54,984 nt of DNA from an uncultured Oscillospiraceae bacterium (GTDB lineage Bacteria > Bacillota > Clostridia > Oscillospirales > Oscillospiraceae), in assembly GCA_944382965.1 (NCBI GenBank), contig CALWOA010000017.1, forward strand, positions 1 to 54,984, in the 5' to 3' direction. The notes beneath the pieces are model-generated. The model saw nothing but the letters and a program-made list of their open reading frames with translations, was not told the DNA's origin and did no database searches. A program made the position numbers and the translations under genes. How positions within the stretch are numbered: position 1 is the stretch's first letter; each line of letters begins with the position of its first letter. Of this stretch, positions 27,417 through 52,680 are shown in pieces.

Positions 27417-27443
27417 CAAAATCAGCAAAACTGCAAACGCATT

Positions 27444-27562: not shown

Positions 27563-28627
27563 TTAATCATTGGTCCCCTTTAATTGCGTAGAAGCTCGGA
27601 TAGAAAGGGAGCAAGGAACTTCAATAATTTCGCAACGCTCCGAATCATCATCACCGGCAATTTTGCGCAGAATCATGTTTGCACACTGACGACCAATTTC
27701 ATGAGAGTCAATGTTAATCGTTGTTATTTCGGGATAAAGGAGGGATGGCAACCGAATGGAGTTGTCCCAACACCAGTCATCCTGACCACAGATTCCGATA
27801 TCTTTTGGAATGGACAGATTCAATCTCTGAATAGCGCTGAAGACACGTAACGTAGTGATGGTATTGACGCAAAGAATACAAACTCTTTCTTCTGGAGAAA
27901 GGACTTCTATGAAATCTCGAAGGCGGAGAAAGACTTCCTCAGAATTATCATTTTTGATATTGAAAATGTCTTCGTCGTTGCAGTAACCATAAATGGCGAG
28001 CATGGCTTCTTTAAATGCTTTAACACGAATCATCCGTGCATAATTTTCGTGTTTTGTCAGAGAGAAAAGGACTGGACGTGTAAATCCCTGGGATTTAAGG
28101 TGCGCAATCAGTGCATTGATTGGTTCCCGGATGCCGGCGATAACAGCATTAAATGGATAATCTTTTACCAGGCGATCACAGATCACAAGGGGCATACCAG
28201 AAAGGGAATATTTCATCAGATAGGGGTCATTGTAGGAAGCTGGGTTGACAATAAGTCCCTCAACACCTCTGGTTTCTAAAGAGGCTGCCAACTCCTTTTC
28301 TTTCTTTATGCTATTATTACTGTTCAAAAATAATGCAGAATATCCCTCTTCAGAGAGAACTTCTTCGCATCCGCCAATAAAGGCGGAAGTCCAAGGGCTC
28401 AAAATATCGGAAACAATAATGCCAATCATTTTTGTCCGATTGTTTTTTAATGCCCTGGCGTATTCGCTGGGACGATAATCGCATAGTTCAATAATGTTTT
28501 GTATTTTTTTTGCGGTTGCTTTGCTCATTAACTCGGTGCGCCCGTTTAGATAGCGAGAGACGGTGGTTTTTGAAACTCCGGCGGCCTCTGCAATGACGTC
28601 GATAGTAACTTTCTTCTTCTTTTCCAT
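27563..28627 (-). CDS. LacI-family repressor of the catabolic island
   Basis: A 354-aa regulator. The N-terminal helix-turn-helix with hinge (VTIDVIAEAAGVSKTTVSRYLNG in pieces, then KIQNIIELCDYRPSEYARAL) is followed by a periplasmic-binding-protein-like sensor domain with GIIVSDILSPWTSAFIGG and ICGQDDWCWDNSIRLPSL. It would bind DNA until an inducer, probably the island's substrate, releases it. The start is ATG 28625-28627 behind CTGGAGG; the longer open frame upstream has no ribosome site. It is divergent from the first catabolic gene, and matching operator-like elements sit at all the island's promoters. Confidence 0.93.
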   Translation of the reverse strand: MEKKKKVTIDVIAEAAGVSKTTVSRYLNGRTELMSKATAKKIQNIIELCDYRPSEYARALKNNRTKMIGIIVSDILSPWTSAFIGGCEEVLSEEGYSALFLNSNNSIKKEKELAASLETRGVEGLIVNPASYNDPYLMKYSLSGMPLVICDRLVKDYPFNAVIAGIREPINALIAHLKSQGFTRPVLFSLTKHENYARMIRVKAFKEAMLAIYGYCNDEDIFNIKNDNSEEVFLRLRDFIEVLSPEERVCILCVNTITTLRVFSAIQRLNLSIPKDIGICGQDDWCWDNSIRLPSLLYPEITTINIDSHEIGRQCANMILRKIAGDDDSERCEIIEVPCSLSIRASTQLKGTND

Positions 28628-28667
28628 ATATTCCTCCAGGGAATATTTCCCAATTTGTAGTAAAATA

Positions 28668-28696
28668 AATATATCACGCTTGGAGCAGAAAAGCAA
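28668..28696 (-). promoter_or_regulatory. Promoter of the LacI-type gene
   Basis: Minus-strand TTGCTT (28691-28696), 17 bases, TATATT (28668-28673). Confidence 0.6.
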
Positions 28697-28717
28697 GTAG
28701 TCGACAGCAAAAAATAA

Positions 28718-28734
28718 TGAAAACGATAAACAAA
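28718..28734. promoter_or_regulatory. Operator-like element upstream of the repressor gene
   Basis: TGAAAACGATAAACAAA. It matches 13 of 17 bases with the element at 38860-38876 and shares the GNAANCG core with the others. It lies just upstream of the repressor promoter. Confidence 0.4.
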
Positions 28735-28929
28735 ATTTTTGCAACAGATCGTAATATAAGAAATATTATTACATACCATATCGATATTATCAACAGTTTT
28801 TGTGTGTGATAATAGTGCATAATATATAAATAATAAATTCGATTTTTATTTTATATTGACAAAATATAGAAAATGTGCTATTGAATAAAACAAATCATAC
28901 TTTACTTTTTTCGGCGCAAAGAGGTAAAA

Positions 28930-28958
28930 ATGATTTACGCAAACGGTTTCAATATAAT
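28930..28958 (+). promoter_or_regulatory. Promoter of catabolic unit A
   Basis: The -10 box TATAAT (28953-28958) is clear. The -35 box is poor (ATGATT at 28930-28935, 17 bases before), as is usual for inducible promoters. The operator lies in the spacer. Confidence 0.6.
28939..28950. promoter_or_regulatory. LacI-type operator in the unit A promoter
   Basis: GCAAACGGTTTC lies between the -35 and -10 boxes. It has the central CG and AAA/TTT arms expected of LacI-family operators. Its reverse complement with flanks matches 17 of 23 bases of the element at 39049. Confidence 0.6.
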
Positions 28959-29000
28959 AAGGAAGTATTCGACAAATAGACGTACTTAGGAGGAATCATT

Positions 29001-29660
29001 ATGGAACTGAACAAGGAAAAAATGGAAGAACTGAAGAAAGTCCTGTATTCCGGCATTCTTAGTGATGTGCTGGATGGTATGGGTTATCGAAATCAGTGTA
29101 TTGGCAGAGCCATCCATTCGCTGAATGACCACACTGTCATTTTTGGACCGGCATTTACGAGCATTGGCACACAAGTCTATACGATGCCGGAAAATCCCCT
29201 GATTGCCCAATGCAAAGTTGTGGATCAACTGCAGGAAGGAGAGATCTATGTTCTGAAGACACGGGGAGACTATAATTGTGCGGTGTTTGGCGAATTGTTT
29301 GCCACTGCGGTAAGACGTCGGGGTGGAGCAGGTGTGCTTCTGGATGCAATGGCACGAGATGTCAAGGAATTAAAGAGAATGGATTTCCCGCTTTTCTATC
29401 GTGGAACTGATCCAAGAACCTCTAAAGGAAGATGCGAAATCAATGAGTGTCAAATTCCTGTGGAGATTGAAGGCGTTACCATTCACCCTGGTGATATGAT
29501 CTTTGCCGACATTGACGGCACTGTGGTTATTCCTAAAGAGATTGCCGGTAAAGTGCTGGATGAGGCGCTGGAGACAATTGAAAAGGAAAACCGGGTTCGG
29601 GATGGACTGAATCATGGTGCTTCTTTGGAAAAAGTTTACACTGAGATTGGTGCAATTTAA
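29001..29660 (+). CDS. RraA-family aldolase/decarboxylase-like protein
   Basis: A 219-aa cytosolic protein. The family core is present: SDVLDGMGYR near the N-terminus, the gate motif LLDAMARDVKEL (D-x-x-x-RD metal site) near residue 115, and MIFADIDGTVVIP near 165. Relatives are 4-hydroxy-4-methyl-2-oxoglutarate or oxaloacetate lyases, or RNase E regulators; the old label menaquinone methyltransferase is wrong. In this setting a divalent-metal lyase acting on a keto-acid intermediate is most likely. It is the first gene of unit A, with AGGAGG 8 bases before the ATG. Confidence 0.85.
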   Translation: MELNKEKMEELKKVLYSGILSDVLDGMGYRNQCIGRAIHSLNDHTVIFGPAFTSIGTQVYTMPENPLIAQCKVVDQLQEGEIYVLKTRGDYNCAVFGELFATAVRRRGGAGVLLDAMARDVKELKRMDFPLFYRGTDPRTSKGRCEINECQIPVEIEGVTIHPGDMIFADIDGTVVIPKEIAGKVLDEALETIEKENRVRDGLNHGASLEKVYTEIGAI

Positions 29661-29694
29661 TTCTTTTACTTAAGCCTTGCGGGGAGGTGCTTTC

Positions 29695-30660
29695 ATGGAT
29701 AAAAAAACACGTGTGCTCAACTGCATTGACAACAAACCGATTGACCGTATTCCATATTGTTTTTGGGAACATTTTTCAGGAGAGGACGCCCATGGAATGG
29801 GGTGCGTCCGTGCGCATAAGCGCTGGTATGAAGAAACAGGCATTGATTTTATCAAAATGCAAAGTGACGGCTTTTTTCAAATCGGTTTTAATGAACCGGT
29901 GAGAGTTCCTTCGGACTGGGCAAAATTGAAAATTCCAGATATGAAAAGCAATTTCGTCCAGGGACAGATTGATCGGTGCAAGTGGACACGCGATAGTATT
30001 CATGATGAGGCCTGTATTTTCTATCTGGTGTTTGCTGCCTTTAGTTTCCTTTGGAAAGAGTATGACAAGGAAATGGTAATTGCACATCTGCGAGATGGGG
30101 AAGCAAGGGAGTATCTTATGCCCTTGCTGGAAAACTTAGGCGACTTTGTTGCTGAGTTTGCCGTAAAACTTCTGGAGGAAACGGGTATTACGGGTATTGA
30201 TGCGGCAATGTCTACCAATTATCGGTTTACTGTAGCACAGTATCGCGCATGGCTCCGTCCTCAGGATCAAAAGCTGTTAAACGCTATTAATCGTGTTAGC
30301 AACTACAATATTGTGCATTTGTGCGGATGGGACCGTGTAAAGAATAACTTTGAATCATGGGGAGACTATGAAGGCGCTGTAATCCACTGGGATCAGCATA
30401 CAGAAGGAATGTCTTTGGCGGAAGGAAAGGTATTTTATAAGAACAAGCGGGCAATTATGGGTGGCTTTGATCATAAACCTGGCACAGTCCTATTTTCTGG
30501 AAGCAAAGAGGAAATTCAGGCGCTGACAAAAGCGTATGCCCGAAGTGGAGGCAAAACTGGCTTTATTCTTTCTGCGGATTGTTCTTTGATGGAACATTTG
30601 ACGCAGGAGCGTGCAAATTGGATCCGGGAAGCCCTGGAAGAAGTGGCCGTGGAGGATTAA
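29695..30660 (+). CDS. URO-D superfamily methyltransferase-like protein 1
   Basis: A 321-aa TIM-barrel protein of the uroporphyrinogen decarboxylase superfamily, closer to MtaA/CmuA methyltransferases than to HemE. It has His208-x-Cys210 (VHLCG) and Cys296 (LSADC), which reproduce the zinc-binding HxC...C pattern of MtaA-type enzymes. True HemE residues for porphyrin binding are not evident. It would move a methyl group to or from a corrinoid or thiol, but no corrinoid protein or activator is in this window. GGGGAGG precedes ATG 29695. The neighbouring gene is its close paralogue. Confidence 0.82.
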   Translation: MDKKTRVLNCIDNKPIDRIPYCFWEHFSGEDAHGMGCVRAHKRWYEETGIDFIKMQSDGFFQIGFNEPVRVPSDWAKLKIPDMKSNFVQGQIDRCKWTRDSIHDEACIFYLVFAAFSFLWKEYDKEMVIAHLRDGEAREYLMPLLENLGDFVAEFAVKLLEETGITGIDAAMSTNYRFTVAQYRAWLRPQDQKLLNAINRVSNYNIVHLCGWDRVKNNFESWGDYEGAVIHWDQHTEGMSLAEGKVFYKNKRAIMGGFDHKPGTVLFSGSKEEIQALTKAYARSGGKTGFILSADCSLMEHLTQERANWIREALEEVAVED

Positions 30661-30669
30661 AAATCATTA

Positions 30670-30702
30670 CTGCCCGGCGGCTTGCCTGCCGGGCAGTTTT
30701 TA
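30670..30702 (+). terminator. Intrinsic terminator between the URO-D paralogues
   Basis: A 9-bp stem (CTGCCCGGC at 30670-30678, GCCGGGCAG at 30688-30696) followed by T5 lies 9 bases after the first URO-D stop and only 18 before the next ATG. It would reduce or regulate expression of everything downstream. Confidence 0.8.
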
Positions 30703-30719
30703 AAATGGGGAGTTTGAGC

Positions 30720-31673
30720 ATGGATAAAAAGCAGAGGGTCCTTGATTGCATTGACGGAAAGCCTGTTGATAAAATACCGGTTTCTTTTTGGCATCATTTT
30801 GTGGGGCAGGACAATTATGGGTTAGCGTGCATTCGACGGCATAAGGAAATATACGAGTCAGCAAATTTGGATTTTATAAAGATGAACAGCAATGGCTACT
30901 ACCCTGTTGACTTTGGCGTCTCGGTACAGACTCCGCAAGATTGGATACATATTCGCCCCCCGAAGAAGGGGAGTGCGTATTTTCAGGAACAGATTGAATT
31001 GATCCGCAGAATGAAAGATGCAATACAGGATGAGGCTTGCGTTTTTTATGTAGTGTATGCTGCGTATAGTTTTTTGCTGCGCTCTTATGGAAAAGAAATG
31101 TGTGATGCACATCTGCGAGATCCGGCGGCTCGAAAGTTTTTACTGCCTGCATTGGAGGCGGTTGGGGATTTTGTAGCGGAACTGTGCCAGGAATTGATTG
31201 TTGAAGGGGGAGCGACTGGAATTTTTGAGGCATATAGCTCTAACAGTCGTTTTTCGCCCAGTGAATATACGGAATGGATTCGACCTCAGGATGAGAAACA
31301 AATGCGCGCATGTGAAGACGCAGGCAAATATAACATTGTCCACCTGTGCGGTGGTGTCGATGGGAGAAACCATGTTGATACTTGGGCAGACTATAGAGGT
31401 TCAACGATACATTGGGACCAGCATTTGGATGGGCTGAGTCTGGCTGAAGGGCGCGTGATGTTTCCCAATAAGCGTGCAATTATGGGTGGATTTGACAATC
31501 GCCCGGGTACGTTGCTGTATACAGGGACAAAGGAGAAGATTCAAGCAATGACCGAAGCATATGTACGCAGTGCTGGCAGGACGGGTTTCCTCCTATCGGC
31601 AGACTGTACGTTGGCTCCCAATGTACCTTATGAACATTTGCGCTGGGTTTCAGAAGCTCTGGAAAAACTTTGA
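30720..31673 (+). CDS. URO-D superfamily methyltransferase-like protein 2
   Basis: A 317-aa paralogue of the preceding protein, collinear from KKxRVLxCIDxKPxDxIP at the N-terminus to the end. The putative zinc ligands His208, Cys210 (VHLCGG) and Cys296 (LSADC) fall at identical positions. It is therefore probably a tandem duplication that has diverged, perhaps for two substrates or a heterodimer. ATG 30720 is 8 bases after GGGGAG; another ATG at 30705 has no spacing for a ribosome site. The stop overlaps nothing but the next gene begins 14 bases later. Confidence 0.82.
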   Translation: MDKKQRVLDCIDGKPVDKIPVSFWHHFVGQDNYGLACIRRHKEIYESANLDFIKMNSNGYYPVDFGVSVQTPQDWIHIRPPKKGSAYFQEQIELIRRMKDAIQDEACVFYVVYAAYSFLLRSYGKEMCDAHLRDPAARKFLLPALEAVGDFVAELCQELIVEGGATGIFEAYSSNSRFSPSEYTEWIRPQDEKQMRACEDAGKYNIVHLCGGVDGRNHVDTWADYRGSTIHWDQHLDGLSLAEGRVMFPNKRAIMGGFDNRPGTLLYTGTKEKIQAMTEAYVRSAGRTGFLLSADCTLAPNVPYEHLRWVSEALEKL

Positions 31674-31687
31674 CGGGAGAGAATAGT

Positions 31688-33526
31688 ATGAAAGATTATG
31701 CCGATCTTAAATTTGTCAGTATTGGGTTTGGTTTTTTGGCTGGATATTTGTATCCCTGCTATAGTCGGTTCTGTAAACCGGAGAAGATAGGTTCCCAAAT
31801 TGCTGCGGTAACAGCGGATGCAGATACGCTGGAATTCAAACGACAGAAGTATGCTTTCCCGATTTTTTTGGATGAGAATGAAAAGGCGTTACGACAAGTA
31901 AATCCAGATGTGATACTGTTCTCTCCACCTCCTGCAGTGGCGCCAAAGCTGGCAAAAGAAGTTTTAAAGCCATACTATGATTCTTTGCGCGACCAAGGAA
32001 AAGGGTTGCCGGATCTATATGCATTTCCGCCCTCACCTCAAGGAAAATTCTATGTGGATTTGTTGGGGAAAGATGTTCATGTGTGCAATATCTTGCCTAA
32101 TATGACCCGAGAAATAGCAGGAAAGGACTTGCATGGTGCGGAAGGAAATACTTATGTAACACTACCAAAAGAAAGTACCTGGCCAGAGGAGAATCTTCAA
32201 ATTCTGGAAAAAATATTCGAACCCTTGGGAGGAATTGTGTATTCTGACCCGGATAATATTCAGGATATCCTTGCGTCCATGTGCGCGGCAGAAGTGATTC
32301 CTTGGGCATGCTTTGCCATTACAGACAGCTTAAAAAGAGAAGAAACAAAATGGGATAGCGGCGGCGTAGCCGGTATTATGCGGGGAATTCATCAGGATAC
32401 TTGGCGGTATTATCCTGATCAAGCAGAACACCTTTGCATTGACGGTGTAAAGGAAGAAATCCGAGAAAAACTAAAACAGTTTTTGTCTGGCTGGACACAA
32501 GGAGGAATTGATTACCTTTGCAGTATTGGCCTTCCTTCGGAAAAAGCCACAAGCATTATGGTTTCCAATGTAGACCTGAGGCTGCATGTTGTGCAGCTTG
32601 AGAGCAGAGAAGAAGTAGAAAACGCATTGGCCGGTCATGCTACAAAAGGGGGGGTTGCGGAACGAGGCAGACTCTGCTACGAAATTTTAGCTGAAGAGCG
32701 AATTAAAGCGGAGTTTACCAACGGAAGTTCCTCAACAGAAAGCTCAGAATTCGGGGCTTTTTGCAAAAATATATCGTTTGAAATTTGCCGAATTGTGGCA
32801 ACACATAGCAGACGTATGGCTGGCAATGAGATTCCTGTGAGATATACTCCGGAGCATCATGCCATTTTGTATGGGCTGTTTGTTCGAAATGCCGTGAAGC
32901 TGGCAGGGCAGGATGGTAAAAAGGCTGTGCATGCAGGTACCCTTCTGTATGCAGATCAGAGAGGTTCCCGGATGGCGAAGCGATGCTTAGAACATGGAGA
33001 TCCGTTGGATCCGTTTGGATATATGGCATACGGGGAATGGGCGCCGGAGCCGGGCACAATGGAAGCAGAGGACGTTTCTTTTGAGCCGGATGTGATCACA
33101 CAAGCCTACACTTGCCCTTGGTTGACGGCATGGGAACAAATGGGCTTTTTGAAGGAAGGAGTGGAGTATTGCAGTTGCATTGATTACAATCTTGTCAAAG
33201 GGTTTAATAGGAATCTGGAATTGACTGTTGAGAGCACACGGACGGAGGGAGCTGAATGCTGTCGTTTTGTATGGAAAGGTTTTTCTATGGATGAAGAGGC
33301 GCGTAAGGCGCTGGCGAAAAAAAAGACAGAACTGTCTGATTCCTGCCGTAAGGATTGGCTTTACCATACCAGACATATTTACAGTGCAATGAGCAGTCAA
33401 ATCTCATTGCTGCCGCAAGGAAAAGCGATTATCGACAAAACCCTTGATGACTTTGGAATCCTGTATGGGAAAAGCGCGCGCGAGGCGGTTTGTGACGTCG
33501 ATCATATTGATTTCTATCAGATTTGA
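31688..33526 (+). CDS. Fusion: Rossmann oxidoreductase-like + ATC hydrolase-like domain
   Basis: A 612-aa two-part protein. The first 290 or so residues begin with a nucleotide-binding GFGFLAG (13-19) and resemble the NADP-dependent pyrroline-5-carboxylate reductase/imine reductase fold, including a helical dimer part. The last 200 residues fit the L-2-amino-thiazoline-4-carboxylate hydrolase family: CPWLTAWEQMG, then CSCIDYNLVKGFN and a closing TEGAECCRFVWK strand. ATC hydrolase opens a thiazoline ring on the way to cysteine. A fused reductase suggests one protein that both reduces and opens a cyclic C=N substrate. GGGAGA is 7 bases before ATG 31688. Confidence 0.7.
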   Translation: MKDYADLKFVSIGFGFLAGYLYPCYSRFCKPEKIGSQIAAVTADADTLEFKRQKYAFPIFLDENEKALRQVNPDVILFSPPPAVAPKLAKEVLKPYYDSLRDQGKGLPDLYAFPPSPQGKFYVDLLGKDVHVCNILPNMTREIAGKDLHGAEGNTYVTLPKESTWPEENLQILEKIFEPLGGIVYSDPDNIQDILASMCAAEVIPWACFAITDSLKREETKWDSGGVAGIMRGIHQDTWRYYPDQAEHLCIDGVKEEIREKLKQFLSGWTQGGIDYLCSIGLPSEKATSIMVSNVDLRLHVVQLESREEVENALAGHATKGGVAERGRLCYEILAEERIKAEFTNGSSSTESSEFGAFCKNISFEICRIVATHSRRMAGNEIPVRYTPEHHAILYGLFVRNAVKLAGQDGKKAVHAGTLLYADQRGSRMAKRCLEHGDPLDPFGYMAYGEWAPEPGTMEAEDVSFEPDVITQAYTCPWLTAWEQMGFLKEGVEYCSCIDYNLVKGFNRNLELTVESTRTEGAECCRFVWKGFSMDEEARKALAKKKTELSDSCRKDWLYHTRHIYSAMSSQISLLPQGKAIIDKTLDDFGILYGKSAREAVCDVDHIDFYQI

Positions 33527-33535
33527 GGTGAAAAG

Positions 33536-34738
33536 ATGGATCGTGTGTATTTTTGCGGGAGAATCCTCACTGGCGCATGTGGGGAGGTAAAGCGAAACCA
33601 GTATGTTTCAGTGGAAAACGGAAAAATTGTATCCGTTTCAAGCCAACGCCCGCCAGAGTGTACAGATATTGTGGACTGGTCTGGTTATACGGTTATGCCT
33701 GGTCTGATTAACTGCCACACCCATGTGGGGATTGTGCCTGCTGCAGATAGTAATCTTGTGCTGACGTATCCCCTCGCGCAGCGTGTGATTCTCATTCAGA
33801 AGCATTTGGTGCAGCTGTTGGCTTCTGGTGTTACGACTATCCGAGATTTGGGCTGTTATGACGACATGGATATTCAAATTAGAGATTGTATCCGAAATGA
33901 ATTCATAATTGGGCCGGATATGTTCGTGTCAGGACCAATGCTTACGATGACTGGCGGACATAGTTATACCGTAGGGGTAGAGGTCGACGGAAAAGATACC
34001 TGTAGAAAAGCGGCAAGGCAGCGCCTGAAATCCGGGGCGGACTTGGTTAAGGTAATGGCGACAGGCGGGGTGCTGACAAAAGGTGTGGAGCCAGGGAATG
34101 CGCAGCTTTCTTGTGAAGAAATGACGGTAATTTGTGAAGAAGCTCACAAAGCTGGGAAAAAGGTTGCTGCGCACGCGCAGGGTACGACAGGTATTCAAAA
34201 TGCGTTGAATGCTGGTGTAGATTCTATTGAGCACGGCTTTTTCATGAATCAGAAAATCATTGATCAGATGGTTCGTAAGGGGGTGTATTACGTTCCGACA
34301 TTTTGCGCACCGTATTTTATGGCGTGCAAAGGTAAAGAGCTTGGATTGGCGCAAGAGTTTATTGATAAAGTTTACAACAGCCTTGAAGCCCACGCTTCCG
34401 GTTTTACATGTGCGTTGAATAGCGGGGTTAAAATTGCCTGCGGAACGGATGCAGGTACACCGTTTAATGGACACGATATGACGGCGAAGGAAATTGTTCT
34501 GCTGTGTGAACACGGAATGAGTAATGTACAGGCGATTCAGGCTGCTACACAAAACGCCGCAGAATGCATCGGTGTAGCAGACCGGGGGAAAATTGAAAGT
34601 GGCTTACTTGCTGACATGATTGCAGTGGAAGGGAATCCGTTGGAGGATATCCACTGTTTAGAAACGAGCGTACGTTATGTCGTAAAGCGTGGGCGTCTGT
34701 TTGATACTGACGTACTGAAGAGGAGTTTGCTGGGATGA
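33536..34738 (+). CDS. Metal-dependent amidohydrolase (imidazolonepropionase/prolidase-like)
   Basis: A 400-aa amidohydrolase-superfamily enzyme with a full set of binuclear metal ligands: HTH in NCHTHVG (about 61-63), the carbamylated Lys in DLVKVMATGG (about 177), His in AAHAQG and IEHGFF, and Asp in CGTDAGTP (about 305). Relatives hydrolyse N-acyl amino acids, Xaa-Pro dipeptides or cyclic amides. It probably cleaves an amide or lactam of the island's substrate. Its stop overlaps the next start (ATGA). Confidence 0.88.
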   Translation: MDRVYFCGRILTGACGEVKRNQYVSVENGKIVSVSSQRPPECTDIVDWSGYTVMPGLINCHTHVGIVPAADSNLVLTYPLAQRVILIQKHLVQLLASGVTTIRDLGCYDDMDIQIRDCIRNEFIIGPDMFVSGPMLTMTGGHSYTVGVEVDGKDTCRKAARQRLKSGADLVKVMATGGVLTKGVEPGNAQLSCEEMTVICEEAHKAGKKVAAHAQGTTGIQNALNAGVDSIEHGFFMNQKIIDQMVRKGVYYVPTFCAPYFMACKGKELGLAQEFIDKVYNSLEAHASGFTCALNSGVKIACGTDAGTPFNGHDMTAKEIVLLCEHGMSNVQAIQAATQNAAECIGVADRGKIESGLLADMIAVEGNPLEDIHCLETSVRYVVKRGRLFDTDVLKRSLLG

Positions 34739-36723: not shown

Positions 36724-36726
36724 TTT

Positions 36727-37626: not shown

Positions 37627-37642
37627 GCCGTGGTGAAAACTG

Positions 37643-37689
37643 CTTAAAAAAGGTCCCCCTGGATGTTAAATATCCAGGGGGACTGTTTT
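37643..37689. terminator. Bidirectional terminator between unit A and the Ldh2-type gene
   Basis: A 12-bp perfect stem (37653-37664 with 37672-37683). The minus side has six T (from the AAAAAA at 37646-37652) and the plus side TGTTTT, so it ends both converging transcripts. Confidence 0.88.
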
Positions 37690-37735
37690 CGCAGCTATTT
37701 GCTGCAAAGAGAAGATGTGTGTGCGATCTTTGTTT

Positions 37736-38812: not shown

Positions 38813-38835
38813 TTTATGCACCTCCTGATTTTGCA

Positions 38836-38864
38836 ATTATAGCACATGAAAAGTGATTATGGAA
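38836..38864 (-). promoter_or_regulatory. Promoter of the Ldh2-type gene
   Basis: On the minus strand the extended -10 box TGCTATAAT (TATAAT at 38836-38841) is strong and the -35 box TTCCAT (38859-38864) weak. Confidence 0.6.
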
Positions 38865-40462: not shown

Positions 40463-40492
40463 TGCTCTCTTCAGCAACTTTTGGAGGTCAAC

Positions 40493-43863: not shown

Positions 43864-43883
43864 ATTTCCTTTACATATGGTTA

Positions 43884-43896
43884 ATAAACGGTTGAA
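43884..43896. promoter_or_regulatory. Weak operator-like element after livF
   Basis: ATAAACGGTTGAA shares AAACGGTT with the unit A operator. It lies in the 86-base gap before the FluG-like gene, where TTGAAC (43903-43908) and TGTAAT (43928-43933), spaced by 19, could be a weak internal promoter. Confidence 0.3.
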
Positions 43897-43949
43897 AGTG
43901 CATTGAACAACTGAGTTCTCCTTTTGCTGTAATACCCCCTCTAAAACCT

Positions 43950-45176: not shown

Positions 45177-46148
45177 ATGGGTGAAAAAATGAAGACAGTA
45201 TCCCAGAGAATACATGAATGTGCAGTTGTTCCTGTTGTGGTGCTTGATGAGGCAGAACGAGCGGTTCCAACAGCGAGAGCTTTACTTGCTGGTGGTATTG
45301 ATGTAATGGAAATTACGTTCAGAACGGAAGCAGCGGCGGAGAGTATCCGAAAGGTTTCGGAAGATTGCCCGGATATGTTGGTTGGAGCGGGTACCGTATG
45401 CAGCGTTCATCAATGTGAGACCGCAGTAGAGGCGGGGGCAAAGTTTATTGTATCCCCGGGGCTAAGTCAAGATGTGGTCCGGTGGTGCTTAGAACGCGAT
45501 ATCACAGTGCTGCCTGGTTGTGTTACACCTTCAGAGATTATGACTGCTATGGCTATGGGATTGAAGGTAGTGAAGTTCTTCCCTGCAAATATTTATGGAG
45601 GCTTGGCTGCCATGAAAAGCTTGGCTGCACCTTTTGTGGGAATCCGCTTTATGCCCACTGGCGGTGTCAGCGTGCAAAACGTAGGAGAATTTGTCGCTGC
45701 CCCATTTGTTCATGCGGTCGGCGGCAGCTGGGTTTGCAGTAAAGCTGATATTGCTGAGGGAAACTATGAAAAGATTTCACGGTTGTGCCGAGAAGCCAGA
45801 AGTGCAGCATTAGGGTTTGAGGTAGCGCATATTGGGATTAATGCGATGGACGCCGAGGCAGCTTCGGAGTTGTCGCAGCAGCTCAAGGATGCTTTCAGTT
45901 TCCCTGAAAAAGAGGGAAATAGTTCTGTTTTTTCCTCTACCGAGATTGAAATAATGAAAAAACCATACTTAGGTGAGAAAGGACACATCGCGATCCGCAC
46001 AAACAATGTTGAAATTGCGGTGGCGGAACTTGAGAAAAAGGGGTATGTGATTCAGAAGGATACAACCAAGTATAAAAACAATCGGATTACGGCTGTTTAT
46101 TTGAAGCAAGAATTTGGTGGCTTTGCTGTCCATTTGCTGCAGAAGTAA
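45177..46148 (+). CDS. KDPG/KHG aldolase with VOC-like C-terminal domain
   Basis: A 323-aa protein. Residues 1-215 are a 2-keto-3-deoxy-6-phosphogluconate (or 4-hydroxy-2-oxoglutarate) aldolase: Glu in VMEITFRTEAA, GAGTVCS, and the Schiff-base Lys in LKVVKFFPANIYGG (about 135). The last 100 residues (GHIAIRTNNVEIAVAELEKKGY, ending GGFAVHLLQ) look like half of a VOC/glyoxalase fold, an extra domain found in some Clostridia homologues. It would cleave the phosphorylated acid made by the adjacent kinase to pyruvate and a triose. ATG 45177 abuts the previous stop; ATG 45189 is an alternative. Confidence 0.88.
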   Translation: MGEKMKTVSQRIHECAVVPVVVLDEAERAVPTARALLAGGIDVMEITFRTEAAAESIRKVSEDCPDMLVGAGTVCSVHQCETAVEAGAKFIVSPGLSQDVVRWCLERDITVLPGCVTPSEIMTAMAMGLKVVKFFPANIYGGLAAMKSLAAPFVGIRFMPTGGVSVQNVGEFVAAPFVHAVGGSWVCSKADIAEGNYEKISRLCREARSAALGFEVAHIGINAMDAEAASELSQQLKDAFSFPEKEGNSSVFSSTEIEIMKKPYLGEKGHIAIRTNNVEIAVAELEKKGYVIQKDTTKYKNNRITAVYLKQEFGGFAVHLLQK

Positions 46149-46177
46149 AACATAATAATGGGGAGATGAAACATTTT

Positions 46178-47206
46178 ATGGCAAAGGTGATTACTTTTGG
46201 AGAAGTGATGCTGCGCTTACAGCCCTATAATTATGAACGATTTGTACAATGCGATCATGTTCAATATACTTTCGGCGGCGGTGAAGCAAATTTGGCTGTG
46301 TCTTTGGCGAATTATGGCATGGATGTTGCATATGTAACGAAATTGCCAACACATGCCATCGGACAAAGTGCAGTAAATAGTCTTCGTCGCTACGGCGTTG
46401 ATACCAGCAAAATTGTTCGTGGTGGAGATCGAATTGGAATTTATTTCAATGAGAAGGGAGCTTCACAGCGCGGCTCAGTCTGTATCTATGATCGAGCCAA
46501 CTCAGCCATTGCAAAAGCACTTCCTTCGGATTTTTGCTGGGATGAAATTTTTGAAGGGGCAGAATGGTTCCATTTTACCGGTATTACGCCGGCTTTGGGT
46601 GGAAACTTGGTCCAGATTTGCAAGGAGGCGTGTCAGGCTGCCAAGGCACATGGCATGAAAGTTTCTTGTGATCTGAACTATCGGGGAAAACTTTGGACCC
46701 GAGAGCAGGCAAGAGCAGCAATGACAGATCTGTGTCAGTATGTAGATGTTTGCATCTCAAATGAAGAGGATGCTAAGGACGTGTTTGGCATTGAGGCAGA
46801 ATCTACAGACATCTATAGCGGGAAACTAAATCGCGATGGTTATCGCTCGGTGGCAAAACAGCTGGCGGATAAGTTTCATTTCGAAATGGTAGCAATTACC
46901 CTCCGGGAGAGTCACTCGGCCTCGGATAATGGCTGGAGCGCTATGCTGTATAATGCTGGAAGCGGTGAGTATTGCTTCTCGAAACAGTATGCGCTGCATA
47001 TCGTGGACCGCGTTGGCGGCGGTGATTCCTTCGGCGGTGGACTGATTTATAGTCTCATGAATGGTATGGATACACAGCAAGCAGTGGAATTTGCAGTTGC
47101 CGCTTCTGCGCTTAAGCATACAATTGAAGGTGATTTCAATATGGTTACCAGATCGGAAGTGGAAAAGCTGATGAAAGGTGACGCATCTGGCAGAATTCAG
47201 CGGTAA
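46178..47206 (+). CDS. kdgK: 2-keto-3-deoxygluconate kinase (PfkB family)
   Basis: A 342-aa PfkB sugar kinase with GGGEANLAVSLANYG near residue 33 and the catalytic DRVGGGDSFGGGL (GxGD) near 282. The match to KdgK-type kinases and the position directly after the KDPG aldolase point to phosphorylation of 2-keto-3-deoxygluconate. ATG 46178 (12 bases after GGGGAG) is preferred to ATG 46166, which lies on the ribosome site. Confidence 0.9.
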   Translation: MAKVITFGEVMLRLQPYNYERFVQCDHVQYTFGGGEANLAVSLANYGMDVAYVTKLPTHAIGQSAVNSLRRYGVDTSKIVRGGDRIGIYFNEKGASQRGSVCIYDRANSAIAKALPSDFCWDEIFEGAEWFHFTGITPALGGNLVQICKEACQAAKAHGMKVSCDLNYRGKLWTREQARAAMTDLCQYVDVCISNEEDAKDVFGIEAESTDIYSGKLNRDGYRSVAKQLADKFHFEMVAITLRESHSASDNGWSAMLYNAGSGEYCFSKQYALHIVDRVGGGDSFGGGLIYSLMNGMDTQQAVEFAVAASALKHTIEGDFNMVTRSEVEKLMKGDASGRIQR

Positions 47207-47209
47207 GCA

Positions 47210-48490
47210 ATGACACAGTCGGTTTTGTATTCTAAGGTGGCAAAAGACGGATTTACATATAACCAGGTGAGAAAGTTTTTGCAGGAAGTCCTTGCGCTAT
47301 ATCGCAAACACGATTTGAAATCTGTTCTGATATTAGGGCCGGATGACACAAGGCGTGATTCCTTTGCGGGTACGATTTGCTGTATTTGCTATCAGGTGTT
47401 AAGTTGCTGGTGCAATGTAGATTTTTTGGAGGCAGATGGAACGCATGCGCCTATGGATGAACAGCGCAGAAAAGTCATGTATCCGGATATTCCCAATAGC
47501 CATTACTTTTCTCATGATTGGCGTAATGATACCGTTGTTGTGGGCAGCATAGATTCAAGCACTGTACATGCGCTGTCGGATGGTATTTTGGAAAAAGACA
47601 TTCCGGTGGAGATCAACCGCAAAATTTTGGATCCAAAATATGGATTGATTATTTCTGTCGGACAGGTGGTTCCGCATGCTGTCGCAGGTATGTCCAATTA
47701 CAGTAAAAATTTTATGGTAGGTGCAGGTGGAAGTGCCATGATCCATGCTACCCACATGATTGGGGCTTGTTATGGTATGGAGAAAATTATGGGACTGGAC
47801 CATACGCCGGCACGGAATTTAATGGATTGTGCCCAGGAACGTTTTTTGTCACAGCTGCCTATTTTATTTATTCAGACCGTTACCAGGCTTGATAATAGGC
47901 AGAAAAATGTATTGTGCGGATTATTTGCCGGTAATGATAGGCAAGCGTATGAACAGGCTGTAGCATTATCTCACAGATATAACATTATCCATTTGGACCA
48001 TCCTCTGAAAACTGCAGTAGTATGGATGAAGCCAGAAGAATTCCATAGTATGTGGACAGCCAACAAAGGAATTTACAGGATTAAAAGAGCTATGGCCCAG
48101 GGCGGTACGCTGGTTGTAGTTGCTCCGGGAGTCTCTTGCTTCAGCGAGGATGCGCAAATGGATAAGCTGATCCGCCTGTATGGATATTGTGGGAAAGAAA
48201 GAATTGTTCAGTTACAAAGAAATTCTCTGGAATTGAGGGAAAATCCAGCAGTTGCAGCACATTTGATACATGGAAGTACCGAAGGCAAATTTACTGTGTA
48301 TTATTATGCGCCTAATCTGGGAAAGAGAAATGTCGAAGCTGTGGGATACCGCTTTATTACAAGTGAGGAGTTAGCGAACTTGTTCGGTTTTCCTGGCTTA
48401 AAAGTTGGATATCAGGACGAAAGCCTTGAGAGCACCTACTTTGTTGAAAACCCGGCATTGGGGCTCTGGATTTACGAACAATTCCCCTGA
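47210..48490 (+). CDS. LarA-family nickel-pincer racemase/epimerase
   Basis: A 426-aa protein of the lactate racemase family, whose members racemise 2-hydroxy acids or epimerise sugar acids at C2 using a nickel-pincer nucleotide. Seen are PDDTRRD near 44, GTHAPMDEQ near 82, the VVPHAVAGMSNYSKNFM region near 155-171 with the His and Lys that hold the cofactor, and IHATHMIGA after it. The larB, larC and larE genes needed to make the cofactor are not in the window. Next to kdgK and KDPG aldolase, an aldonate 2-epimerase role is attractive. Confidence 0.8.
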   Translation: MTQSVLYSKVAKDGFTYNQVRKFLQEVLALYRKHDLKSVLILGPDDTRRDSFAGTICCICYQVLSCWCNVDFLEADGTHAPMDEQRRKVMYPDIPNSHYFSHDWRNDTVVVGSIDSSTVHALSDGILEKDIPVEINRKILDPKYGLIISVGQVVPHAVAGMSNYSKNFMVGAGGSAMIHATHMIGACYGMEKIMGLDHTPARNLMDCAQERFLSQLPILFIQTVTRLDNRQKNVLCGLFAGNDRQAYEQAVALSHRYNIIHLDHPLKTAVVWMKPEEFHSMWTANKGIYRIKRAMAQGGTLVVVAPGVSCFSEDAQMDKLIRLYGYCGKERIVQLQRNSLELRENPAVAAHLIHGSTEGKFTVYYYAPNLGKRNVEAVGYRFITSEELANLFGFPGLKVGYQDESLESTYFVENPALGLWIYEQFP

Positions 48491-48543
48491 AGTTTCAGAA
48501 TGTTGTTGCTTCAGAAGAGACTTTAAAATAAGGAGAAAAAGAA

Positions 48544-49353
48544 ATGGACCTGAAAATGGCTGGTCATGTAGCAGTGGTTTGCGGAGGAAGTACGGGAATA
48601 GGTTTTGCAACGGCCTTAACCTTCTTAAAAGAGGGCTGCTCCGTAGCGATCTGCTCTAGAAGCGAAGCGAAGCTGGAAAAAGCGTATAAAGAGTTGATGG
48701 ATCTGGGGTATTCGAATGTGTATGCAGAATCGGTTGATATGACCGATGAAAAATCTGTATATGCTTTTGCAGACCACGTTGCAGAAAAATTTGGTACAAT
48801 TCATTATTGGGTGAATGTAGTTGGTGGCAGTATGCCGAGAGCACTGAATCAAGCCAGTTCGGAGGACTTTGATCGGGCAGTTGCCATGAATTTTAAGAGT
48901 GCTTTTTTTGGTTGCAATGCTGCGGCAAAGTATATGAAAAAGCAGTGCTATGGAGCAATTGTTAACGTAACCTCTATGGCACATTGGCGACCGGCTGCGG
49001 GAAGGACACTGTATGGTGCAAATAAAGCTGCGTTGGTGCAGCTGACAAAAGGATTTGCTGCTGAACTGTCTCCATTTCATATACGGGTTAATTCCGTATC
49101 CCCGGGGCTGGTTATGAGTGAGATGTCAAGACCATTTGTTCCGGAAGAAGGTACGGAGGAATTCCGTAAGTTTTTCAAGGAATACCTGATTAAACGGCCA
49201 GGTGAAGCCAGAGAGATTGGAGAACCAATCGTATTGCTGTGCTCACCAGCGTTTGGATTTACGACTGCTACGGATATTAAAGCCGATGGCGGTGTGGATG
49301 CGGTGTATGAATTGCAGTGGGTTTATGAAAACCTAGATATCCTTAGCCAATAA
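48544..49353 (+). CDS. SDR-family oxidoreductase
   Basis: A 269-aa classical short-chain dehydrogenase. The cofactor loop is GGSTGIGFA (about 14-22), the NNAG motif is replaced by NVVGGS, and the catalytic Ser...YxxxK appears as NVTSMAHWR and LYGANKAAL. It probably oxidises a hydroxyl of the sugar acid. It lies 53 bases after the LarA-type gene, behind AAGGAGA. Confidence 0.9.
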   Translation: MDLKMAGHVAVVCGGSTGIGFATALTFLKEGCSVAICSRSEAKLEKAYKELMDLGYSNVYAESVDMTDEKSVYAFADHVAEKFGTIHYWVNVVGGSMPRALNQASSEDFDRAVAMNFKSAFFGCNAAAKYMKKQCYGAIVNVTSMAHWRPAAGRTLYGANKAALVQLTKGFAAELSPFHIRVNSVSPGLVMSEMSRPFVPEEGTEEFRKFFKEYLIKRPGEAREIGEPIVLLCSPAFGFTTATDIKADGGVDAVYELQWVYENLDILSQ

Positions 49354-49381
49354 AACCAGCAAAAAGCGAAGGGTGAGGGGG

Positions 49382-50311
49382 ATGAAAGATAAGTGGCTGA
49401 CTAGCAAAATCGGTATCTTTGTTTCAGCGGTATTAACAGCAATCCTCTGGGGGAGCGCGTTCCCTGGGATAAAGATGGCTTATGCGCTGCTGGAAATCGG
49501 AAGTCGGGATATTTGGTCGCAAATTTTATTTGCGGGCTTCCGATTTACCTTAGCAGGGGTGATGACCTTAGGTTTGATTTTTTTCACAAGAAAAAAAGTC
49601 TTGATCCCAACAAGACAGGAGGCAAAAGATTTTGCGTTATTGGGTTTTGTTCTAACCTATTTATGCTATTTCTTCTTCCATGTGGGATTAGCCAATACTA
49701 CGGGAGTAAAAGGAGCCATCCTCGGCGGATTGAGCACATTTGCAACGATCTTATGTTCTCATTTCCTGACGTTGGATGACAAATTAAATTTTCGCAAGTG
49801 TATCGGTTGCGTTACTGGATTCTTGGGAATCGTAATAATGAACTTAGGTGGAGATCTATCGGGGTTTTCTTTCTTGGGAGAAGGGTGCATGCTGGCTAAC
49901 GCATTGTGTTTTGGCTTAGGGTCTGTTTTAAGCAAAAAAATTGCAAATAGTAGAGATTCTTCCTTTATTAGCGGATATCAACTGCTGTTTGGTGGGATAG
50001 GATTGCTACTAACAGGTGCGTTAGGAGGGGGACATTTCCGGAATTTCGGGCCTATGGCGATGGCATTGATCCTATATATGGCGTTCGTTTCTGCAGGTGG
50101 TTTTGCTTTGTGGACCGGTTTACTAAAAAGAAATCCTTCAAGCCGTGTAGCAATTTATCATTTCTTAACGCCGGTCTTCGGTGCAGTATTTTCGGCAGTG
50201 TTATTAGGAGAGGACTTATTCCACTTTTCTAGCCTGGGTGCGCTGATTTTGGTCTGCTTAGGTATTGCCGTAGTAAATTGTGATGGAATAGGGCGTAAAA
50301 AATTTTTTTGA
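49382..50311 (+). CDS. EamA/DMT-superfamily transporter
   Basis: A 309-aa integral membrane protein with ten hydrophobic segments and the paired EamA repeats (AILWGSAFPGIKMAYAL; LLKRNPSSRVAIYHFLTPVFGA in pieces). Family members export amino acids and metabolites or import sugars and nucleotides. In this operon it may export an end product or overflow intermediate. ATG 49382 is chosen; a GTG at 49373 is possible. Confidence 0.88.
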   Translation: MKDKWLTSKIGIFVSAVLTAILWGSAFPGIKMAYALLEIGSRDIWSQILFAGFRFTLAGVMTLGLIFFTRKKVLIPTRQEAKDFALLGFVLTYLCYFFFHVGLANTTGVKGAILGGLSTFATILCSHFLTLDDKLNFRKCIGCVTGFLGIVIMNLGGDLSGFSFLGEGCMLANALCFGLGSVLSKKIANSRDSSFISGYQLLFGGIGLLLTGALGGGHFRNFGPMAMALILYMAFVSAGGFALWTGLLKRNPSSRVAIYHFLTPVFGAVFSAVLLGEDLFHFSSLGALILVCLGIAVVNCDGIGRKKFF

Positions 50312-50371
50312 CAAATGTATTGCAGCAGATGGTGCAGCCAGACAGCGCGCATCTGCATAGGAGGAAAATAA

Positions 50372-51664
50372 ATGGAGTCCTGTAAGGAAAAAAAGATCAT
50401 CGAAATTCTGAAGAATCAGGTGAAACCTGCCTTGGGTTGTACAGAGCCTGGCGCTGTGGCTTTGGCCGTATCCAGAGCAAAAAAACTTTTGGGTGAGCCA
50501 GTTAGCCGGGTAGTGGTGAGTATTGATAAGAATGTGCTGAAAAATGGCCTTGGCGTGGGAATACCTGGGACGAAGGAGCGTGGCAACGCTTTCGCAGCGG
50601 CATTGGCTGTCAGCTGTGGTAACTCAGAATACGGTCTTGAAGTGCTGAAAGATGTCAATCAAGAGGCAATCGCCCAGGCTGAGCGATATCTAAAGGAAGA
50701 AATTGTCAAAGTTGAATATGACCCGGAAGCCACTTGTCTAAAAGTGACTGCCCAAGTTTGGGGAGAGCATCATAAGGCAATGGTGATTATTTACCGAAAT
50801 CACTCGAACATTGCCTTTGAACAATACGACGATGAAGTTCTTCTGGATACGATGAATGTAGAAGCTTCGGTAGTGGCATCTACTTCTGGACCATCCTTAC
50901 AGCAGCAGATTAAAGAATATACCATCCGCGAAATGATTTTGCTGGCAAAAGCACTTCCTGGCGAGGAGCTAGCGTTCATTCAGGATGGAATCGATATGAA
51001 TATGAAGATCGCAGAAGCTGGACTGTCAGATGGTGTTGGCGTTGGCATTGGTAAATACATGATGTCAAGATCAAACGGCACAGTGGAAGGGTGCGCCAAA
51101 GCCTATACCGCAGCAGCATCGGAAGCGCGCATGGCGGGATGGCCTTTATCTGTCATGAGCAGCGCAGGAAGTGGCAATCACGGCTTGACTGCCATTATCC
51201 CCATCAATGTTTTTGGCCAACGAATGGGTTACGATGATGATCTCATCCGACGTGCTGTCGCGTTTAGCCATATGGTTACTATTTTTGTTAAGTCTTATCT
51301 GGGTGCATTGTCTCCCATTTGCGGCTGCGGAGTTGCGGCTGGTGTTGGATGTGCGGCGGGTCTTACGTTTTTGCGAGGTGGGACGGATCACCAAATTGAA
51401 GCTTCCATTTTGAATATGATTGCCGGATTGACAGGTATGCTCTGCGATGGCGCAAAACTTGGGTGTGCGTATAAACTGGCTGTTGCGGTGGATGCTGCGA
51501 TAGATGCATCTAATATGGCTCTGTCCAGAGTACATATTCCGGGTGACAATGGTATACTTTCGGATTCACCTGAGCAATCCATCATAAATATGGCAAAAGT
51601 TTCGGTGCAGGGCATGGGCACTACGGACAGCGTCATTGTAGATATTATGCAAGAGAAATGTTAA
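50372..51664 (+). CDS. UPF0597/L-cysteine desulfidase-like (CdsB/CyuA) protein
   Basis: A 430-aa cytosolic protein of the serine-dehydratase-alpha-like UPF0597 family. The early GCTEPGAVALAVS, the cluster CGCGVAAGVG and the late GMLCDGAKLGCAYK carry the cysteines that can bind an Fe-S cluster. Characterised relatives break L-cysteine into pyruvate, sulfide and ammonia. With the ATC-hydrolase-like domain in unit A this hints that cysteine or a cysteine analogue is released from the substrate. Serine or another 2-amino acid is also possible. AGGAGG precedes the ATG. Confidence 0.85.
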   Translation: MESCKEKKIIEILKNQVKPALGCTEPGAVALAVSRAKKLLGEPVSRVVVSIDKNVLKNGLGVGIPGTKERGNAFAAALAVSCGNSEYGLEVLKDVNQEAIAQAERYLKEEIVKVEYDPEATCLKVTAQVWGEHHKAMVIIYRNHSNIAFEQYDDEVLLDTMNVEASVVASTSGPSLQQQIKEYTIREMILLAKALPGEELAFIQDGIDMNMKIAEAGLSDGVGVGIGKYMMSRSNGTVEGCAKAYTAAASEARMAGWPLSVMSSAGSGNHGLTAIIPINVFGQRMGYDDDLIRRAVAFSHMVTIFVKSYLGALSPICGCGVAAGVGCAAGLTFLRGGTDHQIEASILNMIAGLTGMLCDGAKLGCAYKLAVAVDAAIDASNMALSRVHIPGDNGILSDSPEQSIINMAKVSVQGMGTTDSVIVDIMQEKC

Positions 51665-51687
51665 TTACACCGATGGAGGTATATATT

Positions 51688-52680
51688 ATGGATATGACAA
51701 AGAAAGAACGTATTCAAGCAGCGCTGGCACACAAGGAAGTAGACCGTATTCCCCTTGGAATGTGGTACCATCTGCCACATGTAGACCAGGATGCTGTGGC
51801 TTTGGCTGAGACGCAAATTCAGATGGTATCTGATTATGAACTTGATTTCATTAAAATGATGCCTTTTGGTAATTACCAAGCTGCGGATTATGGCTTAAGT
51901 TGTACTTATTATTGTACGCCGACTCAGGCTGTATTTGAAAGAAAATTTGCGATTGAAAATGTAGAGGAGTGGGGAGAGCTCCAGTCTGTCCCCGGTTGCT
52001 TTGGAAATCATGGCAAGGTATTGCTTGCTGCGAAGGAAATCGCACGTCAGCAAAAGAAGAAAGGTCTTGAGATCCCATTTGTACAGACAATTTTCAGCCC
52101 TTTGACCATTGCCAGAAAGCTTGCTGGAGATCGGGTTTTTGAGGATATGCGAAAGCATCCGGATTTGGTTCATCATGCGCTGAAAGAGATTACAAAGACT
52201 TGCATTAACTTTGCTGCGGAGAATGTTAATGTTGGGGTTTCGGGTTTCTTCTTTGCCAGCCAGTGTTCAACTTATGACTTGATGACGGAAGAAGAATACA
52301 AGGAATTTGGCACACAGTATGACCTTCAGATCCTGAATGCGATCAAAAATGATACATACTTTAACATTATCCATATTCATGGAGAGAATACAATGTTTGA
52401 CTTGCTGTCTTCGTACCCGGTCAATGCTGTTAACTGGCACGATCGTTGGGTAGCGCCTAACCTTGCACAAGCACGCAAACGGACAGATAAGTGTTTGATG
52501 GGTGGTATCAATGAAGCTTGGTTGCATAAGGCAAGACCAGAAGATATCAAAATGCACATTCAGGAAGCGGTTGAACTTGCAGGTAAAACTGGCTTTATCT
52601 TGACTCCCGGCTGCTGTGCATCCATGTTGACGCCCAAGGAGAATTTCTTGGCTGTGAAAGAAGCAATTAAGTCAATTTAA
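51688..52680 (+). CDS. URO-D superfamily protein 3
   Basis: A 330-aa third URO-D-type TIM barrel, clearly diverged from the tandem pair. At the metal site it has His229-x-His231 (IIHIHGEN) instead of HxC, and Cys309-Cys310 (PGCC) at the end. It is therefore a different subfamily, perhaps a methyltransferase with another metal site or a decarboxylase-like enzyme. AGGAGG-type GGAGG is 9 bases before ATG 51688. It is the last gene of unit B. Confidence 0.8.
   Translation: MDMTKKERIQAALAHKEVDRIPLGMWYHLPHVDQDAVALAETQIQMVSDYELDFIKMMPFGNYQAADYGLSCTYYCTPTQAVFERKFAIENVEEWGELQSVPGCFGNHGKVLLAAKEIARQQKKKGLEIPFVQTIFSPLTIARKLAGDRVFEDMRKHPDLVHHALKEITKTCINFAAENVNVGVSGFFFASQCSTYDLMTEEEYKEFGTQYDLQILNAIKNDTYFNIIHIHGENTMFDLLSSYPVNAVNWHDRWVAPNLAQARKRTDKCLMGGINEAWLHKARPEDIKMHIQEAVELAGKTGFILTPGCCASMLTPKENFLAVKEAIKSI

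Follow-up and report, generated by a model that had tools for sequence, protein, structure and literature searches.

In the Pseudomonas pathway for 2-aminothiazoline-4-carboxylate (ATC), ATC hydrolase converts a thiazoline-4-carboxylate to carbamoyl-cysteine, from which an amidohydrolase releases cysteine for breakdown to pyruvate, sulfide and ammonia (PMC10821248). According to two further reports, E. coli ProC oxidises L-thiazolidine-4-carboxylate at pH 10, irreversibly or nearly so (PMC12899673), and cysteine desulfidase has a single cysteine as base alongside three that belong to its iron-sulfur cluster (PMC5767170). Here, we describe an island of 23 genes at positions 27563-52680 of the window, a 54,984-nucleotide stretch of DNA from an uncultured Oscillospiraceae bacterium that is probably gut-living. 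The window is the whole of contig CALWOA010000017.1 (assembly GCA_944382965.1; 2.63 Mb in 60 contigs, 90.8% complete; hereafter G000). The key component of the island is a gene that fuses a domain with a predicted pyrroline-5-carboxylate (P5C) reductase/KARI fold to an ATC_hydrolase domain.

Like the Pseudomonas pathway, the island combines an ATC_hydrolase member with an amide hydrolase and with an enzyme predicted to degrade cysteine, but it differs in the fusion, in a prolidase-type amidohydrolase of PF01979, in an iron-sulfur enzyme of the CyuA type, in a Liv importer and in its sugar-acid enzymes. The likeness to the CyuA/YhaM/CdsB L-cysteine desulfidases lies in an SDH_alpha-family protein that keeps each of the four functional cysteines, although here it is embedded in a putative conjugate-use island of 23 genes with a LacI-family regulator. 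The fusion departs from P5C reductase (ProC/PYCR) in having no match to the P5CR Pfam domains (PF14748, PF03807), long inserts and a C-terminal ATC domain; it also reads KGG where P5C reductase has a GGTT-type motif. MtaA/MtvB-type methyltransferases share the URO-D family with three island proteins, two of which keep HxC...C (URO-D 1 and 2; URO-D 3 has HxH), but by Pfam none of the 23 genes encodes a corrinoid protein, and no activator accompanies them. The De Ley-Doudoroff and 2-keto-3-deoxygluconate (KDG)/2-keto-3-deoxy-6-phosphogluconate (KDPG) routes likewise combine 2-keto-3-deoxy acid kinases with aldolases, but the Pfam matches of the 23 genes include no sugar-acid dehydratase family, and the second carrier of the island lacks the KDPG aldolase and the PfkB kinase. 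In the open-licence PMC literature, outside which most subscription papers fall, the matches listed described neither the fusion nor this combination of genes, nor any thiazolidine-sugar pathway of bacteria.

One unit in two genomes

The 23-gene block works as a single, exchangeable and probably separately regulated catabolic unit. In a second genome of the same genus (G026), 20 of the 23 genes are collinear, with protein identities of 61-89%, and only the stretch 45177-48490 is absent, which carries the KDPG aldolase, a PfkB (KDG-type) kinase and a LarA-like gene. Together with the slot exchange seen in a third genome (G915) and an operator-like palindrome common to both carriers, both described below, this collinearity bears out the original prediction of a self-contained catabolic unit. 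The same prediction had made a KDG/KDPG route to pyruvate a defining feature, and here it is weakened: G026 has neither the KDPG aldolase nor the PfkB kinase in its copy and the dehydratase is missing, while the 2-keto-3-deoxygalactonokinase (DGOK) and the DHDPS-type aldolase are retained. The stretch 45177-48490 may be a later insertion; a PfkB kinase 75% identical to that of the window, and a KDPG aldolase, also occur near the fusion gene in locus L038.

Among 60 other genomes of the genus, the full-length protein was found in G026 only. A draw of 400 genomes from the family (threshold 1e-40) added one full-length fusion (G143) to the window's own, and a draw of 398 genomes from the phylum (threshold 1e-30) returned only the window's own.

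According to open reading frames (ORFs) and Pfam, 21 genes lie on the plus strand, in runs of 8 and 13, and two on the minus strand (Table 1). The parts list and coordinates given earlier for this island stand, except that a single minus-strand gene had been counted; both the LacI and the Ldh_2 genes are on that strand. Spacing is operon-like, with 13 of 19 within-run gaps at 23 bp or less and a maximum of 86 bp; the gaps adjoining 30711 and 43138 are approximate, as these positions, used as gene starts in the measurement, are not start codons.

A LacI-type palindrome, TGAAAYCGGTTWCA in variants, was observed at the promoter regions of the RraA run and the Liv run in both carriers, at 28936 and 39046 in the window and at 32808 and 22721 in G026. 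The Liv-run sites of the two genomes are identical over 14 bases. Three of the four sites trained the position weight matrix (PWM), leaving only 28936 as an independent case. This site ranks third in the window, after the training site 39046 and the coding site 51835 (score 16.0), with a further match at 29875 (15.1), and three sites in a 300-kb host sample score at least as high. A search with an IUPAC palindrome gave 5 matches against 0.98 expected, 2 in the Liv/Ldh_2 region and 3 elsewhere, and missed 28936. These sites are moderate evidence that a common LacI-type operator ties both runs into one regulon. We read the block as a catabolic cassette that is exchanged horizontally and probably controlled by a single regulator.

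These observations bear on the possibility that the island is a patchwork, serving at least two substrates with genes that merely travel together. The two separate plus-strand runs would fit such an origin, as would the presence of Liv and fusion genes without sugar-acid genes in L039 (with a CyuA gene, on a cut contig) and L036. Against this stand the identical gene order in G026 and the one palindrome at both main promoter regions of both genomes, and we regard a patchwork as rather unlikely.

The fusion protein and its linkage to CyuA-type desulfidases

The ATC part of the fusion (residues 391-527) matches PF14196 with 56.4 bits, against a curated cut-off of 28.1, and this is the only Pfam match of the protein at E 0.05 or better. 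Within it, C476, D499 and C525 are invariant across 16 aligned members and, on the alignment, are candidate active-site residues. The P5C-reductase/KARI assignment of the N-terminal domain comes from a structure model, in which the fold matches cover residues 1-381. By sequence, no solved structure was found for the fusion, and a profile search with the N-domain gave chance-level matches only. Compared by hhalign with a genuine ProC, the domain gave a weak match (E 0.0028, probability 11%). A genuine ProC encoded next to the fusion in L037 matches both PF14748 and PF03807; its gene lies directly upstream of the fusion gene (L037, 9145-11779), beside an NMT1-type importer. A selenocysteine in the G026 fusion was considered and rejected, as the in-frame TGA is a stop just upstream of the start codon.

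Scanning genome contigs with a single sequence gave 77 pattern matches and no relatives. When a three-row alignment was used against GTDB genomes, 9 loci were found, or 10 with the window (L035 being G026 and L039 being G143), several of them cut by contig ends, including L036, L039, L040 and L041. The reductase-like and ATC domains are fused in 9 of the 10; L043 has the N-domain alone. A Liv importer is present in seven (G000, G026, L036, L038, L039, L041, L043) and a CyuA-type SDH_alpha gene in six (G000, G026, L038, L039, L042, L043). An amide hydrolase also occurs in six, as PF01979 in G000 and G026, as M20 by Pfam in L038, L040 and L042, and by resemblance to L038 in L039. URO-D genes are found in four loci (G000, G026, L036, L042). 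Small separate ATC_hydrolase genes (166-170 aa) occur in L036 and L043, each time with Liv and DhaK/DhaL genes, and in L038, between LivF and the fusion.

Linkage of ATC_hydrolase to SDH_alpha genes extends beyond the fusion loci. PF14196 matches were found in 88 of 400 family genomes. The linkage set covered 80 of these (the 8 weakest left out), whose 125 ATC matches fall into 102 loci, and used 145 of 150 SDH_alpha rows (the 5 weakest left out); expectations assume uniform placement and rounded genome sizes. An SDH_alpha gene lies within 10 kb of ATC in 20 of the 102 loci, against 1.5 expected (82 are without one), with 8 against 0.8 at 5 kb and 22 against 3.0 at 20 kb. Profile scores and ORF lengths class 19 of the 20 linked genes as CyuA-type. 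Counted by match within 10 kb, 19 of 85 lower-scoring SDH_alpha were linked, compared with 1 of 60 SdaA-type (Fisher p 0.00018, nominal because related genomes are not independent); the lower-scoring group is mostly CyuA-type and includes some ORFs of 510-550 aa and fragments. Among the 17 loci fetched of 22 linked ones, 7 hold Liv operons, 5 hold DhaK and 3 hold M20-type genes. Whichever compound is used, the association of ATC_hydrolase with CyuA-type desulfidases, Liv importers and genes for dihydroxyacetone kinase offers a lead to the function of proteins that so far are mostly family names. URO-D seems not to accompany ATC_hydrolase in general: inspected by eye, among the matches listed, only the window's own contig has it within 10 kb of an ATC match.

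Several arrangements were also observed around these genes. A cassette of CyuA-type, LivJHMGF, DhaK, DhaL and small ATC_hydrolase genes recurs in L045, L052, L053, L057 and L058, with variants in L043 and L036, the latter without a CyuA-type gene. Its hosts belong to the window's family and to other Clostridia, and L045 adds a DhaR/PrdR-like sigma-54 activator. L044 and L046, two ATC/CyuA loci of one genome, carry M20-family genes and M24 genes whose best NCBIfam match is the Xaa-Pro dipeptidase PepQ, below cut-off. At least two ATC paralogues are present in several loci, perhaps forming hetero-oligomers; in L041 (6830-9740), a second, stand-alone ATC_hydrolase gene lies 3' of the fusion gene.

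Putative substrate and route

The linkage between ATC_hydrolase and CyuA-type genes, together with the P5C-reductase-like fold, suggests a ring derived from cysteine; neither feature figured in the original prediction. Three core families of the island, namely ATC_hydrolase, the P5C-reductase-like fold and the Xaa-Pro-dipeptidase-type amidohydrolase, act on proline-like or thiazoline rings. From this combination of enzymes we tentatively propose that the island breaks down a conjugate of a proline-like cysteine ring, of the thiazolidine- or thiazoline-4-carboxylate type, with an acyl or polyhydroxy/sugar-acid group. The conjugate would be taken up by the Liv importer, whose LivJ matches amino-acid-binding proteins. 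The P5C-reductase-like domain would oxidise the thiazolidine to a thiazoline, and the fused ATC_hydrolase domain would then open the C=N ring to an acyl-cysteine, with amide hydrolysis giving cysteine and the acid. The prolidase-type amidohydrolase could cleave the amide at either of two points, while it is on the ring nitrogen or later, in the N-acyl-cysteine. Cysteine would yield pyruvate, sulfide and ammonia, and the acid may be taken to pyruvate by the hydroxyacid dehydrogenases and the 2-keto-3-deoxy acid kinase together with aldolases of the DHDPS and RraA types, with the KDPG aldolase added in the window strain.

The individual enzymes are compatible with these roles to different degrees. 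The amidohydrolase matches NF051886 (Xaa-Pro dipeptidase) with 315.9 bits, below the equivalog cut-off of 500, and the Xaa-Pro dipeptidase structure 2qs8 with 1e-63; its group includes Xaa-Pro dipeptidase, arginine carboxypeptidase and ochratoxinase, and HTH, K, H, H and D motifs resembling metal ligands were located in it. With this prolidase/ochratoxinase-type enzyme in the island and M20 genes beside the fusion in relatives, the original prediction of uptake of an amino-compound/acid conjugate followed by hydrolysis is supported in outline. In the SDH_alpha protein, C23, C317, C358 and C365 are invariant in all seven aligned sequences (the window's and 6 others), in agreement with the base cysteine and three [4Fe-4S] cysteines of CyuA/CdsB; the roles were assigned by order and context from PMC5767170, without aligning the M. 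jannaschii protein. The Ldh_2 protein matches NF040650 with 241 bits, below the cut-off of 500, and has delta1-piperideine-2-carboxylate reductase among its relatives. The RraA-like protein is possibly a third aldolase. For the Amidohydro_2 protein, 2qpx is the sole solved relative by sequence.

Two observations bear on the acid half of the proposed conjugate. The missing dehydratase disfavours an aldonate as the partner, and an acid partner in general is disfavoured by the dihydroxyacetone kinase that several sister loci carry instead. A more specific version, a complete anaerobic route for aldose-cysteine thiazolidines, appears unlikely as a whole; here a new P5CR-like dehydrogenase would oxidise the ring and a fused thiazoline hydrolase would turn it into aldonoyl-cysteine, to be cut to cysteine and aldonate, with both halves fermented to pyruvate and sulfide being released. 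On this view, related pathways encoded by the wider CyuA-Liv-DhaK/L-ATC cassettes would handle adducts that cysteine forms with small carbonyl compounds. If the conjugate reading is true, cysteine-ring conjugates would be a new nutrient class, with three testable enzymes including a fusion not described in the literature matches listed, and anaerobic, probably gut-living bacteria would have a further source of hydrogen sulfide.

The island could instead serve the classical pathway for ATC itself, which is the cyanide-cystine adduct, leaving the sugar-acid genes to something else. The carbamoylase of that pathway is an M20 enzyme, and M20 amidohydrolases stand beside the fusion in L038, L040 and L042. 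The combination of ATC_hydrolase, amidohydrolase and cysteine breakdown also follows the published logic (PMC10821248). Yet the reductase-like domain would be superfluous, although it is fused to the ATC domain in nine of ten loci, and the sugar-acid enzymes conserved in G026 would not be needed, which makes this explanation quite improbable.

Possible demethylation had also been predicted, and a corrinoid-dependent reaction, in which the URO-D proteins would serve as methyltransferases and the substrate would be a thioether or a methylated sugar acid, is given a similarly slim chance. It would account for the HxC...C of URO-D 1 and 2, for the weak match (E 0.0057) of URO-D 2 to the methylcobalamin:coenzyme M methyltransferase MtaA (4ay7) and for URO-D genes near the fusion in L036 and L042. 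The G000 genome gave a single PF02607 corrinoid protein, together with three RACo-like matches, and G026 has one RACo-like match (the genomes are 91-92% complete). The claim is nevertheless weakened, as the island encodes no corrinoid protein and G026 (92% complete) gave no PF02607 match despite all three URO-D genes. The HxC...C of URO-D-type methyltransferases has a zinc-thiol role, and we consider zinc-thiol chemistry at the sulfur of cysteine a likelier, though tentative, role for the island URO-D proteins than corrinoid demethylation. Sulfur-free catabolism of hydroxyproline or proline peptides, whose pathways are served by prolidase, ProC-like, Ldh_2 (pyrroline-2-carboxylate reductase type) and DHDPS/KHG aldolase proteins, would suit the prolidase-type amidohydrolase, the P5CR-like fold, the Ldh_2 protein with its piperideine-carboxylate reductase relative and the KHG/KDPG aldolase, but is the least probable alternative, since ATC_hydrolase, the CyuA-type protein and the sugar-acid kinases are left unexplained and the KHG aldolase is absent in G026.

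Table 1. Features of the island and its edges in the window
Feature	Coordinates	Strand	Evidence or remark
Inserted block between two conserved host flanks	27532..53043	.	blastn vs G915
LacI-family regulator	27563..28744	-	PF00356, PF13377; 68% in G026
Candidate LacI operator upstream of RraA run	28936..28953	+	PWM 15.9; outside training set
RraA-like, class II pyruvate aldolase superfamily	29001..29660	+	PF03737; NCBIfam best PRK08245, below cut-off
URO-D protein 1, HxC...C	29695..30660	+	PF01208; alignment
URO-D protein 2, HxC...C	30720..31673	+	PF01208; alignment; 4ay7 weak match
P5C-reductase/KARI-fold domain (predicted) + ATC_hydrolase domain fusion	31688..33526	+	PF14196; predicted fold
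Prolidase/carboxypeptidase/ochratoxinase-type amidohydrolase	33536..34738	+	PF01979; NF051886; PDB 2qs8
D-2-hydroxyacid dehydrogenase	34735..35700	+	PF02826, PF00389
2-keto-3-deoxygalactonokinase family (DGOK)	35701..36723	+	PF05035
DHDPS/NAL/KDG-aldolase family	36727..37626	+	PF00701
Ldh_2-type L-2-hydroxyacid (malate/sulfolactate-like) dehydrogenase	37736..38836	-	PF02615; NF040650
Candidate LacI operator, Liv-run promoter region	39046..39063	+	TTGAAATCGGTTTC exactly common to G026; training site
Liv-type (HAAT) ABC importer: binding lipoprotein, 2 permeases, 2 ATPases	39188..43863	+	PF13458, PF02653, PF00005
Binding lipoprotein (LivJ) of Liv importer	39188-40390	+	Peripla_BP_6
Amidohydro_2 metal-dependent hydrolase	43950..45176	+	PF04909; 2qpx
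Accessory block: KDPG/KHG aldolase, PfkB KDG-type kinase, LarA-like (Lar_N)	45177..48490	+	Pfam; absent in G026
Short-chain dehydrogenase (SDR)	48544..49353	+	PF13561
EamA transporter	49373..50311	+	PF00892
CyuA/CdsB-type [4Fe-4S] cysteine desulfidase-like protein (SDH_alpha)	50372..51664	+	PF03313; alignment
URO-D protein 3, HxH replacing HxC	51688..52680	+	PF01208; translation

Slot exchange and composition

Acquisition of the island had been predicted from shifts in composition, and the exchange observed in the same-genus genome G915 bears this out. A single G915 contig (L080) carries both window flanks, 8.3 kb apart by blastn. The left flank aligns at 23079-24517 and 24516-27531 with 88 and 90% nucleotide identity (the pieces lie 1.7 kb apart in G915), and host sequence restarts at 53044, where the right tail aligns to 54414 with 89% identity; the right-tail gene has an 86% match. 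Since these flanks enclose unrelated content in G915, the inserted block sits in an exchangeable slot, with the variable content between conserved flanks that marks a genomic island. The left breakpoint lies about 50 bases past a hairpin downstream of a DUF4179 gene, common to the window and G915; the right one is the start of the stretch common to both genomes, beyond a lipoprotein gene. Families typical of host housekeeping occupy the left flank of the window: adenylosuccinate synthetase and lyase, GMP synthase, a GATase/SIS protein and CTP synthase.

Misassembly of the window contig, or a chimeric join at the slot, was ruled out, as both flanks lie on one G915 contig. A plasmid origin was likewise rejected; no plasmid record of the searched collection encodes the fusion at E 1e-5. 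No integrase was found among the 23 genes, and the two 140-base edge stretches share no word of 9 bases or more; repeats further out were not looked for.

The sharp change in base composition that had been claimed at both edges was confirmed at the left one only. There, G+C (GC) content falls from 0.49-0.51 in the last 4.6 kb of the flank to 0.41-0.47 in the island, and the tetranucleotide distance to the host sample is 0.305 for the island, compared with 0.076 for the left flank and 0.06-0.19 for fifteen 20-kb host pieces, which supports an outside origin. From 27601 on, 10 of 11 island blocks exceed the host range for 2.3-kb pieces (p95 0.323). At the right edge, no GC shift was observed (0.454 in the 2.3-kb tail), and the tetranucleotide distance of the tail, 0.318, is just within that host range. 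GC in the lipoprotein-gene region is 0.45 in the window and about 0.42-0.48 in G915; since the G915 counterpart is also low, low GC at this edge is native, and the right boundary was set by homology to G915, not by composition.

In G026, 1.5-kb blocks of the island have GC of 0.47-0.59 against 0.57-0.66 in its flanks. None of the 20 left-flank ORFs of the window has a match in the 33.8 kb fetched of the 43.8-kb island contig of G026, which places the island at a different location there. Because GC and location differ between the carriers, these sequences suggest that the two gained the island separately.

The slot between the DUF4179 and lipoprotein genes is a possible hot spot for diet modules, and its exchange illustrates their movement. 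In G915, the slot (5457-13789 of L080, contig C44) is filled by another cassette, which on inspection of the translations by eye consists of a two-component system, a sugar-type ABC importer and a 547-aa protein. The lipoprotein-like host gene (53113-54117) has no Pfam match; it is full length in G915 with 84-86% identity, and in G046 the copy is truncated by the contig end.

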